Assembly: GCA_016177845.1 (NCBI GenBank) | Contig: JACOUO010000011.1 | Coordinates: 1-64,000, forward strand | Length of the DNA: 64,000 nucleotides | Source of the DNA: Deltaproteobacteria bacterium | Lineage (GTDB): Bacteria > Desulfobacterota > GWC2-55-46 | Direction: 5' to 3' | Shown: positions 28,443-39,215 of the stretch, one piece after another | Numbering within the stretch: the stretch's first letter is position 1 | How the letters are laid out: each line of letters opens with the position of its first letter | Notes under the pieces: model-generated | The model's database searches: none | What the model was told of the DNA's origin: nothing | What the model saw: the letters and a program-made list of their open reading frames with translations, nothing else | Translations under genes and position numbers: made by a program

Positions 28443-29660
28443 ATGAACCAACAGGGGATTGAATTCCCGGGCCGTTACAGAACCATTATCAAGATAATTC
28501 TGCTCACGATACTGCTTATCTATCCGCTTCTCGTCAATGCCGAAACGCAACCCGAATCAAAATCAGTCGAGTCCACAGGCATGGCGGTCATTACAGATAA
28601 CAATGTGCCCGTAGCACGGGACGCAGCCGTTGGGGACGCCCTGAGAAAGGCTGTTGAACAGGCTGTAGGCACCATGGTCTCTTCTGAGACAATGGTTGAG
28701 AACTTCCAGCTCCTCTCCGATAATGTTTACACAAAGACACAGGGCTACATAAAGAGTTATACGGTTACCAAAGAAGGGCAGTCACAGGGCTTTTATCAGG
28801 TGACTGTAAAGGCGTTGGTCGAGGTAGGCACTCTTATGGACGACCTTAACGCAATGGGGATTTTACAGAAAAAGGCAGAAAAGCCCAGGGTGCTTTTCAT
28901 GATAGCCGAAAAGAACATAGGGCATAAGTATTATACATTCTGGTGGTGGGGCAAGAGCGAGTTCAAGGGCGAGACCGTGGATATATCAGCCGCGGAGACA
29001 TCCTTGAAGCAAATTTTCCTTAATAAAGGCTTCAATGTTGTCGATATGTCAGGGAGCACCGAGAGCTTTGTCGTTGAAGACTCTTTCAAGGTTGAAGACC
29101 TCACAAAAGACGGCGCAAAACAGATAGGCAAGAAGCTTAACGCGGAAATAGTAGTATTCGGCAAGGCAATGGCAAAGGAAGGCCCGAGGACGCCCGAGAG
29201 CGCGGTAGGGACCTATCTGGCGGACATAACGCTTCAGGCAGTAAGGGTAGATGACGGCGGAGTGCTTGCCTCAGCCAGCGGCCACGGGGCGGCCCGCCAT
29301 ATATCCGAGATTACAGGCGGCTCTGAGGCAATACAGAAGGCGTCTTCCGAGCTTGGTGAGAAGCTCATTGAGCAGATAGTCCAGAGGTGGTCCGCAGGCC
29401 ATGAGATTACAGTTAGGCTCAGGGGCGTTACCGATTACCTCAGAGTTGTGGAATTTAAAAACCTCCTCAGGGGCAGGGTCAGGGGAGTGCAGTCAGTCTA
29501 CCAGAGAAGGTTTGAGAACGGGGAAGCCATATTCGAGATTGAGTCAAAAGTACCTGCCCAGCAGGTAGCTGATGACATACTCAAGCTCGGGTTGAGCCTG
29601 AGGGTTTTAAGCACCTCGCCCAATACGATAACGGTTGTAATGGAGCCGGTGCAGCAGTAA
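28443..29660 (+). CDS. FlgT N-domain-like exported protein
   Basis: 405 residues. It starts at ATG 28443 after AGGAGG and has a hydrophobic export segment (about 14-33, ending V-N-A). The first domain (about 40-130) has the FlgT N-terminal pattern: GMAVITDNNVPVARDAAVGDALRKAVEQAVG, then YTKTQGYIKSY and a beta strand YQVTVKALVEVG. The middle (about 145-290) looks like the nucleotide-binding-like fold seen in CsgG/LpoB-type proteins. A C-terminal region of alternating strands follows. FlgT is a Vibrio flagellar H-ring component, but no flagellar gene is present here. It is the first gene of a six-gene envelope operon. Confidence 0.72.
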   Translation: MNQQGIEFPGRYRTIIKIILLTILLIYPLLVNAETQPESKSVESTGMAVITDNNVPVARDAAVGDALRKAVEQAVGTMVSSETMVENFQLLSDNVYTKTQGYIKSYTVTKEGQSQGFYQVTVKALVEVGTLMDDLNAMGILQKKAEKPRVLFMIAEKNIGHKYYTFWWWGKSEFKGETVDISAAETSLKQIFLNKGFNVVDMSGSTESFVVEDSFKVEDLTKDGAKQIGKKLNAEIVVFGKAMAKEGPRTPESAVGTYLADITLQAVRVDDGGVLASASGHGAARHISEITGGSEAIQKASSELGEKLIEQIVQRWSAGHEITVRLRGVTDYLRVVEFKNLLRGRVRGVQSVYQRRFENGEAIFEIESKVPAQQVADDILKLGLSLRVLSTSPNTITVVMEPVQQ

Positions 29661-32831: not shown

Positions 32832-33680
32832 ATGAGAAAATTGCTGTTAGTTCCCCTGATGATCTTCCTCTTTGCCGCAAGCGCATGGGCGGAGATGAAC
32901 CAGGGTTTGCCGCAGGTGGTCACAGACCCGAGACAGGCCTTTGTGACGGGTTCGATAGTTGTTAAGGGAGAGGGCGCTGCACCCACGGAAAAGAAGCTTT
33001 CAGCCGCGCAGAAGAGGATTATGGCACTGAGGGCGGCTAAGGTAGTGGCGCTCAGGGAAATTGCCGAGATATTGGATGGTGTTGCCATAAGCGGCGAGAC
33101 AACGGTAGTCAATGCCGCCGCTGAATCGGATACTGTCCGCGCTACCGTGCAGGGCATCGTAAAAGGCGCGCAGGTAATCAAGGAAATATACGACCCTTTA
33201 AGCGAGATGGCGGTCGTATATGTAACAGTGCCCATGACAGGGCCTAACGGCATTATGGGGCAGTTGCTGCCTCAGGTCATACCCCTGGCGCCTCCGGCAT
33301 GGCCTGCATACCAGCAGCCGCTGGAGACTGTACAGCCGTCCAATTTTGACGGCCTTATAATAGATGCAAGGGAGAAGCCGTTCAGGCCGGCCCTTATTAA
33401 CCGCATAGTCACAAAGAACGGTGAAAGCATCTATGACCCCGCAAAGGTCGCCCAGGACATACTTGTTGAAAGGGGAGCCGCGGAATATACCAATGACATT
33501 GGGAAGGCAAAGGCTCTTTTAGGTGAAAGGGGCTCAAGCAATCCTCTTATCATAAAAGCCGAAGGCATTGTAAGGTCAACGGATGTGGAGGTTGCTCCTG
33601 AGGACGCGAGCGCGATATTCAGTTCAAATCAGTCCAAAAACTACCTTGAAGGCGCAAAGGTGGTTTTTGTTTTAAGATAG
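32832..33680 (+). CDS. LPP20/FlgP-like exported protein
   Basis: 282 residues with a signal peptide cleaved after A-W-A. There is no lipobox. The first half (about 35-140) matches the LPP20/FlgP pattern: KRIMALRAAKVVALREIAEIL followed by AESDTVRATVQGIVKGAQVIKEIYD and VVYVTVPM. The second half after a Pro-rich linker contains a domain with PSNFDGLIIDAREKPFRPAL and AQDILVERGAAEYTND. FlgP is the H-ring partner of FlgT in Vibrio. Together with the FlgT-like genes it suggests a ring-like envelope structure without a flagellum. Confidence 0.75.
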   Translation: MRKLLLVPLMIFLFAASAWAEMNQGLPQVVTDPRQAFVTGSIVVKGEGAAPTEKKLSAAQKRIMALRAAKVVALREIAEILDGVAISGETTVVNAAAESDTVRATVQGIVKGAQVIKEIYDPLSEMAVVYVTVPMTGPNGIMGQLLPQVIPLAPPAWPAYQQPLETVQPSNFDGLIIDAREKPFRPALINRIVTKNGESIYDPAKVAQDILVERGAAEYTNDIGKAKALLGERGSSNPLIIKAEGIVRSTDVEVAPEDASAIFSSNQSKNYLEGAKVVFVLR

Positions 33681-33714: not shown

Positions 33715-34470
33715 GTGAGGAAATTGTTTGTAGCTGTTTTTATGTTTGTTGCTCTCGCTTTCACAGCGTCAACAGCTTCAGCCGTGGTAGATGTTGAAGG
33801 CAGGTACTGGTTTACTGAGCTTGACGACACTATAAAGGTAACGAGCGGAAATGTTATCGGAACTGAGATAGACCTTAAAAATGACCTTGGCGTCGATGAT
33901 AAGAAGAACTTCTGGGAAGGCAGAATAACCCTTGAGCTCGGAAGCCACAAATTGAGATACGGCTATATGCCCCTTAAATGGGACGGCTCTAAAAACCTGA
34001 CACAGTCAGTTGTCTTCAATGGCCAGACTTACTCAGCCTCCGCCGATGTAAATTCAGAACTTAAGATGGATTATCACCGCCTCGGGTATGAGTATGATTT
34101 TTTTGATACCCTCAATAACCGTCTCGGCGTAATCCTTGAGGTAAAATATTTTGATGGGGACGCAAAGCTCAAGTCAACTTCCCTTGGCCTCAATGAGCAG
34201 GAAAGCTTCAAGCTGCCGATCCCCACAGTGGGTATAACAGGTCAGGTAGGCCTTCCCCTTCTTTTAAGCGTCGGCGGTGAAGTGACAGGCGTAACACTGG
34301 GCAGCTCGGCATATCTTGTAGATGCGGAAGCAGGCATTAACCTTAAGCCTGCCCCGTTTGTCGTGATATCTGGCGGCTACAGGATCTTTAAGCTCCATGT
34401 CGAGAGTGATGATGATAAAGTAGACCTTACTGTAAAAGGCCCGTTCGTATCTCTCAGGGCTGATTTCTAA
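33715..34470 (+). CDS. Small outer-membrane beta-barrel protein
   Basis: 251 residues from GTG 33715 after GGAGGTG. The signal peptide ends A-S-A. The mature part consists of alternating strands (VDVEGRYWFTEL, WEGRITLELGSHKLRYGY, MDYHRLGYEYDFF, LGVILEVKYFDGDAKL, YLVDAEAGINL, VVISGGYRIFKLHVE) and ends FVSLRADF with a terminal Phe. Eight strands are plausible. It closes the FlgT/CsgG/FlgP-like operon and may be its membrane-embedded part or its client. A terminator follows. Confidence 0.8.
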   Translation: MRKLFVAVFMFVALAFTASTASAVVDVEGRYWFTELDDTIKVTSGNVIGTEIDLKNDLGVDDKKNFWEGRITLELGSHKLRYGYMPLKWDGSKNLTQSVVFNGQTYSASADVNSELKMDYHRLGYEYDFFDTLNNRLGVILEVKYFDGDAKLKSTSLGLNEQESFKLPIPTVGITGQVGLPLLLSVGGEVTGVTLGSSAYLVDAEAGINLKPAPFVVISGGYRIFKLHVESDDDKVDLTVKGPFVSLRADF

Positions 34471-34490: not shown

Positions 34491-34531
34491 CCGGGGGTAT
34501 TTTCCATCATTGGAATCCCCCGGTTTTTTTA
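34491..34531 (+). terminator. Intrinsic terminator of the CsgG/FlgT operon
   Basis: CCGGGGG pairs with CCCCCGG around a 19-base loop, itself partly paired (TTCCATCATTGGAA), and is followed by seven T. The gap to 34705 also has a TATAAT at 34643-34648, a possible -10 of the Mla operon with a poor -35. Confidence 0.9.
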
Positions 34532-34705
34532 TTTTCAATGTATTCTCAGACTGCGGCGCGCTCTCGTAGGAAACATTGCTCTCGCCTGCGCATAATTTTA
34601 AAATAATTAAAGCAAATACTTTAAAAAAAATTGTAAATATTGTATAATTTTCGCGAATTTAGGTGTGCGTTTAAGGTCCGGGCGCACGATTCGGGAAAAG
34701 GCTGA

Positions 34706-35491
34706 ATGAAAATTATCAGGTATTTAGGCGAATCTGTCCTGAGGCGTTTCACGGTCCTCAGTTCGGTATGGGAAATACTCCTCTCCTCATTTCTGAATCT
34801 CATCTTCAGGTTCCATCGGGGCCGCAAGGCTACCTTAAGAGTACTTCTCAAACAGATATACTTCACAGGTTTTGAGGCCATACCCATCGTGTCCTGGATA
34901 GCCATTGTCCTCGGCCTCATCATCGTCACACAATCACTTTCAATCCTTCCCAGATTCGGCGGAGAGGGCTTGATAGGCGAGATATTCGTATGGGTAGTCA
35001 TCAGGGAAGTCGGCCCTGTATTCGCCTCTGTAATCGTTATCGCGAGGAGCGGAACAGCGATTGCCTCCGAGCTTGGCAGCATGAAGATATCCAAAGAGAT
35101 AACCTCCCTTGAAGTGATGGGCATAGACCCCATCCATTACCTCATAACACCAAGGGTAATCGGGACCGGCATCAGCGTACTTCTCCTGACATTCTATTTC
35201 GAGGCAGTATCCATCCTTGGCGGCTATTTGCTCGCCGGCTTCGGCAAGAATATCTCTTTTTCCGTCTACACGCAGAGCATACTTGAGGCAATGGGGTTTC
35301 TTGAGATAGGAGTTTCGCTCTTGAAGAGCTTACTCTTCGGGCTTATAATAGGCGCAGTCTGTTCTTATCACGGGTTGATGGCAGAGAAGTCAATTACGCA
35401 GATACCGCAGCAGACCACAAAGGCGGTCATAGGAAGCCTGAGGCTTGTCTTTGTGATGGATGCTGTAATAACTTTTGTCTTTTTTATGTAG
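34706..35491 (+). CDS. mlaE: MlaE-type phospholipid ABC transporter permease
   Basis: 261 residues. The MlaE family core is clear: FTGFEAIPIVSWIAIVLGLIIVTQ, then FGGEGLIGEIFVWVVIREVGPVFASVIVIARSGTAIASELGSMKISKEITSLEVMGIDP, and LKSLLFGLIIGAVCSYHG. Five or six membrane helices are visible. The complex carries phospholipids between inner and outer membranes. Its ATPase partner is the next gene, which is degenerate, and the MCE protein follows. GGGAAAAGG serves as ribosome site. Confidence 0.95.
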   Translation: MKIIRYLGESVLRRFTVLSSVWEILLSSFLNLIFRFHRGRKATLRVLLKQIYFTGFEAIPIVSWIAIVLGLIIVTQSLSILPRFGGEGLIGEIFVWVVIREVGPVFASVIVIARSGTAIASELGSMKISKEITSLEVMGIDPIHYLITPRVIGTGISVLLLTFYFEAVSILGGYLLAGFGKNISFSVYTQSILEAMGFLEIGVSLLKSLLFGLIIGAVCSYHGLMAEKSITQIPQQTTKAVIGSLRLVFVMDAVITFVFFM

Positions 35492-35503: not shown

Positions 35504-36175
35504 ATGGCTCAATTCGTAGAGATAAAGGAACTGACAAGCTATTCGGAGGATGGGAGGGCGGTATTTGAAAATGCCGGCCTGATCTTAAAAGGCGGGGAAA
35601 GGGTTCTTATTACCGCGCCTGTGGCATCAGGCAAAAGCCTTTTGCTTAAGCTCCTCTCAGGCATTGAGAAGCCTGAAAAAGGCCAAGTCCTCATATTCGG
35701 GGAGGATACCTCGGCAATTGATAATGAAGCTTTGAACAGGCTTCGCAGCAGGCTGGGGTTCGTTTTTCAGGATAATGTGCTTATAAGCAACCTCAAAGTG
35801 CTTGAGAACATCGCGCTCCCTTTATTATACCATTCAAATATGCCCTATGATGAGGTAATGGAGCGGGCTTTGGAACTCCTTGATAAAACGGGCTTCAGGG
35901 GCGACCCATGGGTACAGCCGGGAAGCCTTGCCCTCTACTCAAAGAAGGAAGTCGCAGTTGCCAGGGCAATGGCTTTGGAGCCTGACATAATAGTGTGCGA
36001 GAGCTTGTGCGAAGGGCTTACTGAGGCTGAAAAGGGCCAGATATCAGACCTTTTGATAAAATATCAGGAGAACAGTAACAGGCTTCTTGTATTTACTGCG
36101 GTCAATGACGCGGATGCAGGCCTCCTGAGGCCTGACCGTGTCATCAGGATTGAAGGGAACAGGTTTTTGGAATAG
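35504..36175 (+). CDS. MlaF-position ABC ATPase with degenerate catalytic motifs
   Basis: 223 residues, collinear with MlaF. The Walker A is APVASGKS (first Gly lost, GKS kept) and the Q-loop FVFQDN is intact. The signature LSGGQ is replaced by LALYS, followed by the usual VAVARAMALEPD. The Walker B is IIVCES: the Asp that holds magnesium is Cys, the Glu remains. The D-loop Asp is Thr (CEGLT) and the H-loop His is Asn (TAVNDAD). The frame is complete, so it is not a simple pseudogene. It may bind ATP without normal hydrolysis, or act in a passive or differently driven complex. It lies 12 bases after mlaE and directly before the MCE gene. Confidence 0.85.
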   Translation: MAQFVEIKELTSYSEDGRAVFENAGLILKGGERVLITAPVASGKSLLLKLLSGIEKPEKGQVLIFGEDTSAIDNEALNRLRSRLGFVFQDNVLISNLKVLENIALPLLYHSNMPYDEVMERALELLDKTGFRGDPWVQPGSLALYSKKEVAVARAMALEPDIIVCESLCEGLTEAEKGQISDLLIKYQENSNRLLVFTAVNDADAGLLRPDRVIRIEGNRFLE

Positions 36176-36176
36176 T

Positions 36177-37199
36177 ATGGATAAGATAAAAGAAAAGGAT
36201 TCAAGGTTTAAATACCTTGAGGTAAAGGTCGGCATAATGGCATTAATTGCCATTATAGGTATAATTATCTTAATTGTCCTTGTCGGGAGGGAAAAGGACC
36301 TGTTTACTCCCAAGTACCGCCTGCATTTTGTATCCATGAGCGGAACAGGCTTTACCGAGGGGATGCCTGTTAAGCTCTCCGGCTTCAAGATAGGCAGAGT
36401 GAAGAGCATCGAGCTTACGGATGACGCAAAGGTAAAGGTAACTACGGAGATAAATAAAAAGTACGAGAGATGGGTCAGGGAAGGGTCAAAGGCAAGGCTG
36501 TCCAAGGAGGGGCTCATAGGAGAATCCATAATTGAAGTGACCGTGGGAAACCCTGCCGGGAAGGTATTTGCGGACGGAGAGTTGATACCTTTTGAAAAAA
36601 CAGGCGGAATAGAGGAGCTTGTCGAAGAAGCCAAACCTGTACTGGAAGAAGTTAAGGAGATCATACATTACGCCAATAGCCCGGAGGGTGACATTAAACA
36701 GGCTCTCGGTAATATAAAAGACTTAACTGCCGAACTTAAGGAAACTCGCAAAACTATTGAAATTACATTGAAAAAAACCAATAATCTGATAGATAATGTA
36801 AATAGTAAAACAGCCCCTGCCGCTGATTCGGCATTGAAGATAATGAAGAACCTTGAAGGCGTGTCCGAGAGGATAGGCCCGGTCATGACACGCATAGAAG
36901 GCATTACGGTAAAAGCAGACACAGTTGCGGAAAAATTACCCGCAACACTGGATAAATTTGAAAAAACGGTCAATAATATCAAGAATATCACAGACACCTT
37001 TGCAGGAGAGACCCCAAGGATGAGGGAGATGCTCATTAACGCCGATGATACGCTTCGTGACGGCAAGACCATCATGAGGGGCGTTAAGCAGAGCTGGCCT
37101 GTAAGGTTGATGGTGCCACAGCCAAAAGACCCGGGGCTGGTGCCGCTCGACGGTTATTTGTTCGACAGGAGGATGAATGAAGTTGAAAAGAAGAAATAG
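36177..37199 (+). CDS. mlaD: MlaD-type MCE-domain protein
   Basis: 340 residues from ATG 36177, one base after the ATPase stop; the ORF-track start at 36138 lies inside that gene. One membrane helix (about 18-38) is followed by an MCE domain (about 45-125: YRLHFVSMSGTGFTEGMPVKLSGFKIGRVKSIEL). A long helical part (about 150-310, many Asn/Lys/Thr heptads) is likely a coiled coil forming a tunnel or needle. Its length exceeds the E. coli MlaD (183 aa) and is closer to the longer Mce/PqiB-like forms. It would form a hexameric ring moving lipids across the periplasm. Confidence 0.92.
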   Translation: MDKIKEKDSRFKYLEVKVGIMALIAIIGIIILIVLVGREKDLFTPKYRLHFVSMSGTGFTEGMPVKLSGFKIGRVKSIELTDDAKVKVTTEINKKYERWVREGSKARLSKEGLIGESIIEVTVGNPAGKVFADGELIPFEKTGGIEELVEEAKPVLEEVKEIIHYANSPEGDIKQALGNIKDLTAELKETRKTIEITLKKTNNLIDNVNSKTAPAADSALKIMKNLEGVSERIGPVMTRIEGITVKADTVAEKLPATLDKFEKTVNNIKNITDTFAGETPRMREMLINADDTLRDGKTIMRGVKQSWPVRLMVPQPKDPGLVPLDGYLFDRRMNEVEKKK

Positions 37200-38133
37200 T
37201 TTGTTGTTTGCGTCCCTATTGGCTATTTCGTTGGCTGGCTGCGCCGGTGTTCAGAAAGTCGAGAGTGACAAGCCGTTTATTCAGGCAAAAGCGGCTGAGG
37301 CAAACAGAACAGGAGCTGACGCATATGCAAGAGGTGAGTACAGCAGGGCTCTTGATAAGTTCCTTGAGTCACTTAGGATAAACAGGAGCATAGATAACAG
37401 GGCAGGAGAGGTTTTGGACCTTATTAATATCGGTCGGGTATATACCTCGCTCGGCCATTACAAAGATGCAGTAAATTTCCTCAATGATTCGGTCAGGCTC
37501 GGTGTGTCATTGAAGGATGATAAAATGTTATCTGAGGCTTATGCTACCCTTGCCAAGGCAGATTACCTTGGTGGGGATTCGGTGGCCGCTCTTGATCATA
37601 TCGCGGAATCCATCCAGCTCGATGAGAAGCTTGGCATCAGGTCGGGCGCAAAATTAAATCTAAAGGCAGTTATATTTATTGAGACTGAAAGACGCTCTGA
37701 GGCCGCTGAAGCTCTTAAGTCAGCGCTTGCCCTTAATAAAAGTTCCAAAGATGAACTGGAGATAGCCAACTCATGCAGGGCCATCGCGGAGATACACAGG
37801 TTTGAGGGAAGGCATGATGACGCCTTTGAATATTTCAAAATGGCATATGATATAGACAAGAACACAGGGGATTCGAAAAAGATAGCCCTTGACCTTGAGA
37901 GGATGGCAGAGCTGCACCTTAAGGCAGGCCGTAACAATGATGCCATCTTTCTTTTTGAAAGGTCGTATATCGTAAACCTCAACAGCGGATACATTGGCAG
38001 GGCTGTCCAGACGCTAGATCTCCTTATTGACGCATGCAGGATATCGGGCAATGATGATAAGGCGGTAAGGTATTCGAAGATGCGCGACAGCATACTTTCC
38101 AGTGTTGAAGTCGAGAAGGTGAATGTGAGATGA
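37177..38133 (+). CDS. TPR-repeat lipoprotein of the Mla operon
   Basis: 318 residues. The lipobox LAGC follows a basic, hydrophobic signal, and AGGAGG precedes the ATG, which lies 23 bases inside the mlaD gene. About six TPR units fill the rest (AYARGEYSRALDKFLESLRI; YKDAVNFLNDSVRLG; AEALKSALALNKSS; DAFEYFKMAYDIDKN; NDAIFLFERSYIVNL). TPR proteins dock partner proteins. Its place suggests it scaffolds or regulates the MCE complex at the outer leaflet of the inner membrane or at the outer membrane. No MlaC or MlaA homologue is next to it. Confidence 0.85.
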   Translation: MKLKRRNSLLFASLLAISLAGCAGVQKVESDKPFIQAKAAEANRTGADAYARGEYSRALDKFLESLRINRSIDNRAGEVLDLINIGRVYTSLGHYKDAVNFLNDSVRLGVSLKDDKMLSEAYATLAKADYLGGDSVAALDHIAESIQLDEKLGIRSGAKLNLKAVIFIETERRSEAAEALKSALALNKSSKDELEIANSCRAIAEIHRFEGRHDDAFEYFKMAYDIDKNTGDSKKIALDLERMAELHLKAGRNNDAIFLFERSYIVNLNSGYIGRAVQTLDLLIDACRISGNDDKAVRYSKMRDSILSSVEVEKVNVR

Positions 38134-39215
38134 AACCCAGGGTCATGGCTGTAGATGACGATGAGAAAAACCTTGCCCTGTTAAGCGCAAAGCTTGAAAG
38201 GGAGGGGTATGAGGTCGTTACTGCCAGAAACGGCATCGAGGCCCTTGCAAAGGTGCGTCTTACTCCGCCTGACCTTATCCTGATGGATGTCATGATGCCC
38301 CAGATGGACGGGTATGAGGCCTTAAGGCAGCTTAAATCAAGGGAAGATACTCGCTATATACCCGTAATAATGCTTACAGGAAGGGCAGAGGTCGAGGATA
38401 AGGTGCTTGGCTTTGAGGTGGGCGCCGAAGATTACATACAGAAACCCTACAGTCTTCAGGAGGTATCCGCAAGAGTAAAATCCCTTTTAAGAATGAGGGC
38501 TTTGCAGACAAAGCTCAGGGAAACCGAAAAGATGGCCGCATTGGGAGAGATGGTGGACGGGATTGCCCATGAGGTCAGAAATCCGCTTACTGCAATCGGA
38601 GGGCTTGCCAGAAGGCTTTTTGAGGGCACTGCCGACCCGCAGCATAAGGCTTATACCCAGAGCATACTGAAGTATGTCCAGCGCCTTGAGAGGATGCTGC
38701 AGAGGATAGATGAGTATAAGAGGATACTGGTATCAACGCCTTCAAGAGGTGAATTGAATCCGCTTGTATCAGCCGCGGTCAAGGATATCAGGGAGTTTAT
38801 CGAAGGCACGGGCAAGGACATTGCCTTACAGGAGAGGCTGATGCCTGATCCGCCGCCTGTCATGATGGATTACGGGAACTTAAAGATTGCCCTTTTCAAT
38901 ATCCTCCAGAACTCGGTTGAGGCCATTGAGAAAAAAGGCGAGATACGGGTTGAGACAACTCCTGAGTTTGACCAGACTGTGGCGATAAAGATTTCCGATA
39001 CAGGCGTGGGCATGACGCAGGATGAGATAAGAAAGATTTTCAATCCCTTCCAGACCTCGAAGTTTGAGGGCGCGGGACTTGGCCTTACAATAAGCTACAG
39101 GATAGTGCACGACCACGGCGGCGAAATAGATGTCGAAAGCCGCAAAGGCGAGGGGACTACAGTTACTATCAGGCTCCACCCCGCAAAATCCGCTGAAGAG
39201 CCTAAAAGGATTTAA
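38130..39215 (+). CDS. Receiver-histidine kinase hybrid (REC-HisKA-HATPase)
   Basis: 361 residues and no membrane helix. An N-terminal receiver (1-120, Asp53 in LILMDVMMPQMDGYE, Lys in YIQKPYS) is joined to a HisKA domain with the phospho-His in GIAHEVRNPLTAIGG (about 150) and a HATPase (NILQNSVEAIEKKG; ISDTGVGM; GAGLGLTIS). The N-terminal receiver with C-terminal kinase is the layout of response-regulator-kinase relay proteins. The ATG overlaps the previous stop (ATGA), so it is coupled to the Mla operon and may report on envelope lipid state. Its partner is unknown. Confidence 0.9.
   Translation: MKPRVMAVDDDEKNLALLSAKLEREGYEVVTARNGIEALAKVRLTPPDLILMDVMMPQMDGYEALRQLKSREDTRYIPVIMLTGRAEVEDKVLGFEVGAEDYIQKPYSLQEVSARVKSLLRMRALQTKLRETEKMAALGEMVDGIAHEVRNPLTAIGGLARRLFEGTADPQHKAYTQSILKYVQRLERMLQRIDEYKRILVSTPSRGELNPLVSAAVKDIREFIEGTGKDIALQERLMPDPPPVMMDYGNLKIALFNILQNSVEAIEKKGEIRVETTPEFDQTVAIKISDTGVGMTQDEIRKIFNPFQTSKFEGAGLGLTISYRIVHDHGGEIDVESRKGEGTTVTIRLHPAKSAEEPKRI

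Follow-up and report, generated by a model that had tools for sequence, protein, structure and literature searches.

Several questions about phospholipid transport by MCE systems are unsettled, namely the route by which phospholipids reach the outer membrane, the direction of transport and the role of ATP. In the MlaFEDB system of Proteobacteria, the MlaE permease and MlaD are accompanied by an NBD, MlaF, the dimers of which are stabilised by a C-terminal 'handshake' extension; the E. coli MlaF variants K47A and E170Q do not complement (PMC7367683). A smaller, three-component MlaEFD system, with a long MlaD and lacking MlaA and MlaC, occurs in Veillonella and most diderms, and its MlaF is reported to be conserved (PMC10665443). 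MCE systems free of an ATPase are already known: PqiA and LetA, the partners of other MCE proteins, contain no ATPase domain (PMC12436622). Also known are ABC transporters with one degenerate site. Each composite ABC site combines Walker A, Walker B and the H-loop from one subunit with the signature contributed by its partner; in the heterodimers Pdr5, TAP, TM287/288 and BmrCD, a loss of the catalytic Glu, the His and signature residues has been maintained by selection, the defects falling on one composite site and leaving one canonical site (PMC7756269).

The window analysed here is a stretch of 64,000 nucleotides (GenBank assembly GCA_016177845.1, contig JACOUO010000011.1) from a member of the Desulfobacterota. 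It contains an operon with the gene order mlaE–psF–mlaD, in which psF, sitting at the MlaF position, specifies a degenerate ABC domain. The features of the locus are:

32832..33680, + strand: secreted LPP20-like protein, 282 aa, upstream neighbour of the barrel gene, syntenic across the class (Pfam LPP20 18.8 bits, below the threshold of 25.9)
33715..34470, + strand: outer-membrane beta-barrel protein, 251 aa, with a signal peptide and Phe as its last residue, kept in synteny with the MCE genes
34491..34530, + strand: intrinsic-terminator-like hairpin plus T run, between the barrel gene and the mlaE operon (from the sequence; single exact match)
34620..34648, + strand: promoter-like TTTAAA-17-TATAAT upstream of mlaE, a weak candidate
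34706..35491, + strand: MlaE-type permease, 261 aa, of the 'MCE2' MlaE clade (PF02405, 212 bits, above the cut-off; tree)
35504..36175, + strand: psF, degenerate MlaF-position ABC domain, 223 aa (ORF, profile, alignment and fold)
36177..37199, + strand: MlaD, 340 aa, one MCE domain and a long helical region (PF02470, 57.2 bits, cut-off 25.1), with its ATG at 36177
37177..38133, + strand: TPR lipoprotein with the lipobox LAGC, its start overlapping the end of mlaD
38130..39215, + strand: response regulator-histidine kinase hybrid, overlapping the TPR gene by 4 nt, final gene of the presumed operon

The psF reading frame begins with ATG 12 nt past the end of mlaE, has no internal stop and ends 1 nt ahead of the mlaD ATG, confirming the statement of a sequence-only reading of this DNA that an intact gene has been kept between mlaE and mlaD. 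Its product scored 65.3 bits on PF00005 (cut-off 25), sufficient for assignment as an ABC_tran domain; on the NCBIfam MlaF model NF008809 it reached 86.8 bits, below the cut-off of 441, and the FtsE and LolD models scored slightly above the MlaF model, all far under their cut-offs. The nearest PDB entries by sequence were those of MlaF (7d06, 6z5u and 6xbd). The AF2 model predicts that a complete ABC fold is kept (pLDDT 92.4), and the closest solved folds include MlaF entries 6xgz, 6xbd and 7cha, E. coli MlaF being among the nearest. The permease of the window scored 168.6 bits on TIGR00056, below the cut-off of 212.2, and MlaE identity across the class was 59–76%. No barrel was recognised in the 340-residue MlaD sequence. 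The product of the barrel gene weakly matched NCBIfam TIGR04219 OMP (75.7 bits, under the cut-off of 105); its AF2 model is a barrel (pLDDT 87.5), and its best PDB folds are outer-membrane barrels. The barrel gene was syntenic with the MCE operon at 16 of the 20 loci read, and we infer that its product belongs with the transporter. Upstream of it, between positions 28443 and 32790, genes for secreted FlgT_N-like, GNA1162-like, CsgG-like and SLH-domain proteins lie in a row, their order and size being preserved in many relatives; they could specify an envelope or flagellar outer-membrane structure tied to the MCE operon.

When set beside the described systems, the psF operon resembles that of MlaFEDB in its set of MlaE, NBD and MlaD, and in that MlaF is among the nearest proteins by sequence and predicted fold. 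It differs in that psF lacks the catalytic residues and the C-terminal extension, in that no MlaB gene was recognised in the operon and no MlaC in the genome, and in bearing the additional TPR lipoprotein and kinase genes. With the three-component MlaEFD it shares the small set without MlaA and MlaC and the long MlaD; however, MlaF is conserved in that type, to which a canonical system on contig C5 of the same genome conforms while the psF system does not. As in LetAB and PqiABC, an MCE protein would operate with an inner-membrane complex devoid of ATPase activity, if psF is as inactive as its sequence suggests; unlike in those systems, the membrane partner is a permease of the MlaE type (PF02405) and not of the LetA or PqiA type, the NBD fold is kept, and there is one MCE domain instead of several. 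The degenerate-site heterodimers show the same kind of loss, but in psF both damaged halves are in one protein, and no second NBD gene was seen beside psF at any of the 20 class loci, which leaves zero intact sites. In the literature searched (most subscription journals lay outside its scope), we found no description of a degenerate MlaF or of a lipid ABC transporter with both sites dead, nor of a selected loss of both site halves of an NBD over a class, graded over a phylum.

Catalytic motifs of psF

Motifs were compared with those of the canonical MlaF that the same genome encodes on contig C5, the Walker B region in a gap-free alignment anchored on GL. The remnants in psF are:

35615..35638, + strand: Walker A remnant APVASGKS, residues 38-45 (canonical GRSGEGKS)
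35927..35941, + strand: signature remnant LALYS, residues 142-146 (canonical LSGGM in the same genome)
35990..36004, + strand: Walker B remnant IVCES (canonical LFDE), with Asp replaced by Glu166 and the catalytic Glu by Ser167
36095..36109, + strand: H-loop remnant TAVND, with His replaced by Asn201

The destruction of the signature, D-loop and H-loop that the sequence-only reading had reported was verified residue by residue (LALYS, Asp to Thr173, and Asn201), as was the change of the first Walker A Gly to Ala; the second Gly is also Ala, which goes further than had been claimed. Lys44 and Ser45 of Walker A are retained, as is Gln89 of the Q-loop. In the case of Walker B, the loss of the Asp stood, while its replacement by Cys with the Glu kept did not: when the canonical stretch EIVLFDEPTTGLDP was aligned without a gap to DIIVCESLCEGLTE of psF, residues I163-V-C-E166-S167 formed the Walker B region, and the earlier register was off by one residue, a shift that leaves the conclusion unchanged. 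The C-terminal extension of MlaF is missing from psF in the alignment (223 aa, compared with 248 in the canonical MlaF of its own genome). Since psF lacks the catalytic Glu, the switch His and the Gly-Gly of the signature, no normal ABC site would be possible, and it is near-certain from these residues that it cannot hydrolyse ATP.

Conservation in the class and history in the phylum

Orthologues were sought in 59 relatives and then in 63 genomes of the class. At least 29 of the 63 were found to have one, spread over several families and orders, 39–57% identical to psF and all with open frames; to these G033 adds a psF fragment at a contig end. A search of genome contigs with psF as the single query returned only remote ABC proteins (from Draconibacterium and one Thermodesulfovibrionales MAG) and no orthologues. 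The operon of MlaE, psF, MlaD, TPR and kinase genes was shared by 20/20 loci read, with extra ORFs between mlaE and psF at two of them. In G051 (L065:4686-7883), mlaE and psF are both intact although extra ORFs of 161 and 852 aa lie between them; in G056 (L064:4493-6063), mlaE is preceded by two tandem copies of the barrel gene.

None of the 28 full-length psF proteins retains the catalytic Glu, the A-loop aromatic, the H-loop His or either signature Gly, whereas 36/36 canonical MlaF proteins (from the same and related genomes) have all of these residues. The Walker A Lys was found in 25 of the 28 and is lost in genus g19 (SANGNAAN), and the Ser/Thr that follows it was found in 17; Glu166 at the position of the Walker B Asp is common to many members. 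Normal motifs in sister genomes, which the sequence-only reading had named as the mark of a local decay or sequencing problem, were looked for and not seen; the alignment within the class shows the losses to be fixed in every full-length orthologue. Among close relatives, dN/dS was 0.06–0.18 for psF and 0.04–0.06 for MlaF; in most pairs the psF value was some three times that of MlaF yet well under 1, with dS nearly saturated in some pairs. These ratios indicate that psF is under purifying selection. The conserved frames and operon, together with the low dN/dS, make psF a family that has been kept and not a case of local decay, and the claim that the gene at the mlaF position would be unable to act as an ATPase is strengthened by the fixation of the changes over families and orders under such selection.

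The segment that comes after the Q-loop of an ABC transporter lies opposite the permease's coupling helix, and it is here that psF is most conserved:

35780..35833, + strand: LISNLKVLENIALPLLYH, 18-residue stretch after the Q-loop, the most conserved window of psF and its presumed MlaE-contacting groove

The entropy of LISNLKVLENIALPLLYH was 0.50 bits, against a median of 1.67 in the psF family; taken over 19 residues, the best-conserved window was LISNLKVLENIALPLLYHS. Column entropy in psF was 1.59 bits overall; the post-Q-loop groove stood at 0.52 bits and the catalytic motifs at 1.3–2.3, while the catalytic motifs of canonical MlaF gave 0–0.4 bits. The post-Q-loop consensus is ISNLKVxEN, and N92 (the Asn of ISN) was present in 49/49 NBDs of the psF-related clade and in 0/36 canonical MlaF proteins. 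The coupling helix of MlaE is located between TM2 and TM3 (PMC7790496); loop 114-142 of the psF-associated MlaE, which is the coupling-helix region by position, was also conserved (0.61 versus 0.82 bits). Over 19 genome pairs, the mean identity was 48% for psF and 66% for its permease, compared with 82% for canonical MlaF and 80% for canonical MlaE, a contrast which implies that selection has been relaxed on the ATPase part only. These patterns indicate that constraint has been lifted from catalysis and retained on the putative docking surface.

The phylum was scanned with the MlaE alignment over 395 sampled genomes, with some candidates per genome scored and the counts being lower bounds; related MCE2-type permeases were found in at least 38 of them. 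In the MlaE tree, these permeases stood apart from the canonical ones with support of 100/99 and formed two subclades. The NBDs of subclade one range from near-intact (G088, with an intact Walker A, LSLGL, Asp-Glu-Pro and His changed to Asn), through intermediates with Glu-to-Gln or Glu-to-Asp changes (G113 and G069), to wrecked (G074 and G189). Subclade two unites the class of the window with three other families; its NBDs are all wrecked, and the P-loop is unrecognisable in G120, G205 and G298. This subclade also includes three loci (L197 in G206, L198 in G153 and L200 in G257) at which an MCE2-type mlaE stands alone, adjoining a fructose-1,6-bisphosphatase gene, and neither MlaD nor a matching NBD was found within ~5 kb. 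Over the 49 NBDs of the clade, the first signature Gly was present in none and the H-loop His in one (G428, otherwise wrecked), where it is probably due to chance. The history is most simply read as one in which the switch His and signature Gly disappeared early and complete decay followed, and complete loss of catalysis probably occurred at least twice. In the NBD tree, psF lay on a separate, fully supported branch from canonical MlaF; when LolD and FtsE outgroups were included, the less degenerate relatives fell outside the psF clade (in a midpoint-rooted tree with long branches). As this tree leaves the history unsettled, the claim of one clade rests on the MlaE tree. With members that run stepwise from near-intact catalysis to none, the clade lends itself to the study of non-hydrolytic roles of the ABC domain. 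In most of the phylum's MCE2 operons, the gene after mlaD specifies a TPR lipoprotein. In family f31 (L156:7029-7868, L188:3969-4810 and L189), the MCE2 mlaE and its NBD gene have a gene for a metallo-beta-lactamase-fold hydrolase between them or immediately behind them.

Possible roles of the psF transporter

The second MlaF whose existence had been considered is indeed present in the genome, in a normal MlaE-MlaF-MlaD set (contig C5; mlaF at L048:6091-6837, minus strand). The MlaD of this set (L048:4462-6018) is 518 aa in length; it is greatly extended at its C-terminus and in this resembles the barrel-bearing MlaD type of Veillonella. Canonical MlaF was found in 25 of the 28 psF genomes searched; those of G016 and G033 are 79–85% complete. 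G002 was considered as a psF genome without canonical MlaF, and hence as a case against powering in trans, and was rejected, as its contig breaks off immediately past alr, the point at which mlaE would be expected. Canonical MlaFED also occurs in genomes without psF (as scored by its permease).

There is, in our estimate, about an even chance that psF is a structural pseudo-ATPase which holds MlaE in a non-cycling state and makes the complex a passive lipid conduit. The conservation pattern suggests that psF would dock, as a putative dimer, on the coupling helices of MlaE; without ATP-driven closing and reopening, it would fix the permease in a single conformation, which would most likely be the nucleotide-free V shape open towards the MlaD ring. 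MlaE without nucleotide has been seen to be V-shaped and open to this ring, and MlaC is reported to receive lipids from MlaD without ATP, a transfer that ATP hydrolysis prevents (PMC10212509). The sequences suggest that lipids may likewise pass through the psF transporter without ATP; they would travel from the inner membrane through MlaE and MlaD to the outer membrane along their own gradient, and we infer both this passive role and a net flow that by default would most likely run from the inner to the outer membrane. ATP-driven work would be done by the canonical MlaFED encoded elsewhere in the genome. As the genome has no MlaC, MlaD and the TPR lipoprotein would need to span the periplasm, possibly together with the barrel, a speculation from gene order. 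Since dead MlaF fails in E. coli, the psF system must do something other than ordinary Mla function. The Walker A Lys of 25 of the 28 class members counts against the passive conduit, since it makes nucleotide binding possible.

Some of the alternatives would leave psF either useless or still catalytic. The rapid divergence of psF might point to a pseudogene, recent decay or a sequencing error, but the frames are open, the operon is shared across families and orders and dN/dS is well under 1; the bare pseudogene reading is ruled out by the operon and dN/dS, and this group of explanations as a whole retains hardly any probability. It is very improbable that a rearranged active site hydrolyses ATP, for while many members have Glu166 in place of the Walker B Asp, and relatives in the phylum with Asp-Glu (G088, G131 and G203) may hydrolyse, the catalytic Glu, His and signature are missing in 28/28 and the entire P-loop in some, and the motif columns of psF vary freely where those of MlaF do not.

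Other readings keep the transporter energised or switchable. psF might bind ATP through its Walker A without hydrolysing it, toggling MlaE between open and closed as a latch or energy sensor; the retained Lys fits this, and the downstream response regulator-kinase makes sensing thinkable. However, the Lys is missing in g19 and the P-loop is unrecognisable in several other families, and with the A-loop aromatic and signature Gly-Gly in 0/28 and the Ser/Thr in 17/28, an ATP sandwich dimer is hardly possible, so we hold this to be unlikely. It is unlikely too that the C5 canonical MlaF replaces psF on MlaE, or pairs with it, and hydrolyses ATP there, leaving psF as a regulator or asymmetric partner. 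A complete canonical MlaEFD is at hand in the genome, and the coupling region of the psF-partner MlaE resembles the canonical one; yet a heterodimer of MlaF with psF, which is defective in both halves, would have zero intact sites, psF lacks the dimer-stabilising extension, N92 strictly separates the two NBD clades, and the presence of canonical MlaFED where psF is absent makes the co-occurrence unspecific. It is likewise unlikely that MlaE, MlaD or the TPR lipoprotein is driven by another energy source, such as the proton-motive force: PqiAB and LetAB do function with inner-membrane partners without an ATPase (PMC12436622), but no ExbB/TolQ-type or other energising partner was found among the syntenic genes. 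The sequence-only reading had foreseen a transporter that is passive, is driven by another protein or pairs with a second MlaF; the passive conduit, a putative role, is the best supported, and the second MlaF exists, but pairing with it would yield no intact composite site.

If the psF system does move lipids without ATP, the MlaE-MlaD core would be a passive channel and ATP would only set the direction. A natural, selected MCE complex whose ATPase appears dead, sharing its cell with one whose ATPase is intact, would be a ready-made experiment. We propose more tentatively, with the chances somewhat against it, a phylum-wide branch of MCE systems in which an ABC ATPase became a structural subunit, losing catalysis at least twice and with the ATPase gene apparently gone from the locus of one family, to give an ATP-independent inner-to-outer-membrane conduit beside the ATP-driven retrograde Mla pump of the same cell.

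In genus g19, a third MCE set was observed (L160, on contig C11 of G035), in which MlaF-MlaE-MlaD are followed by MlaA-like and MlaC-like genes; this is the genus whose psF has lost the Walker A Lys.
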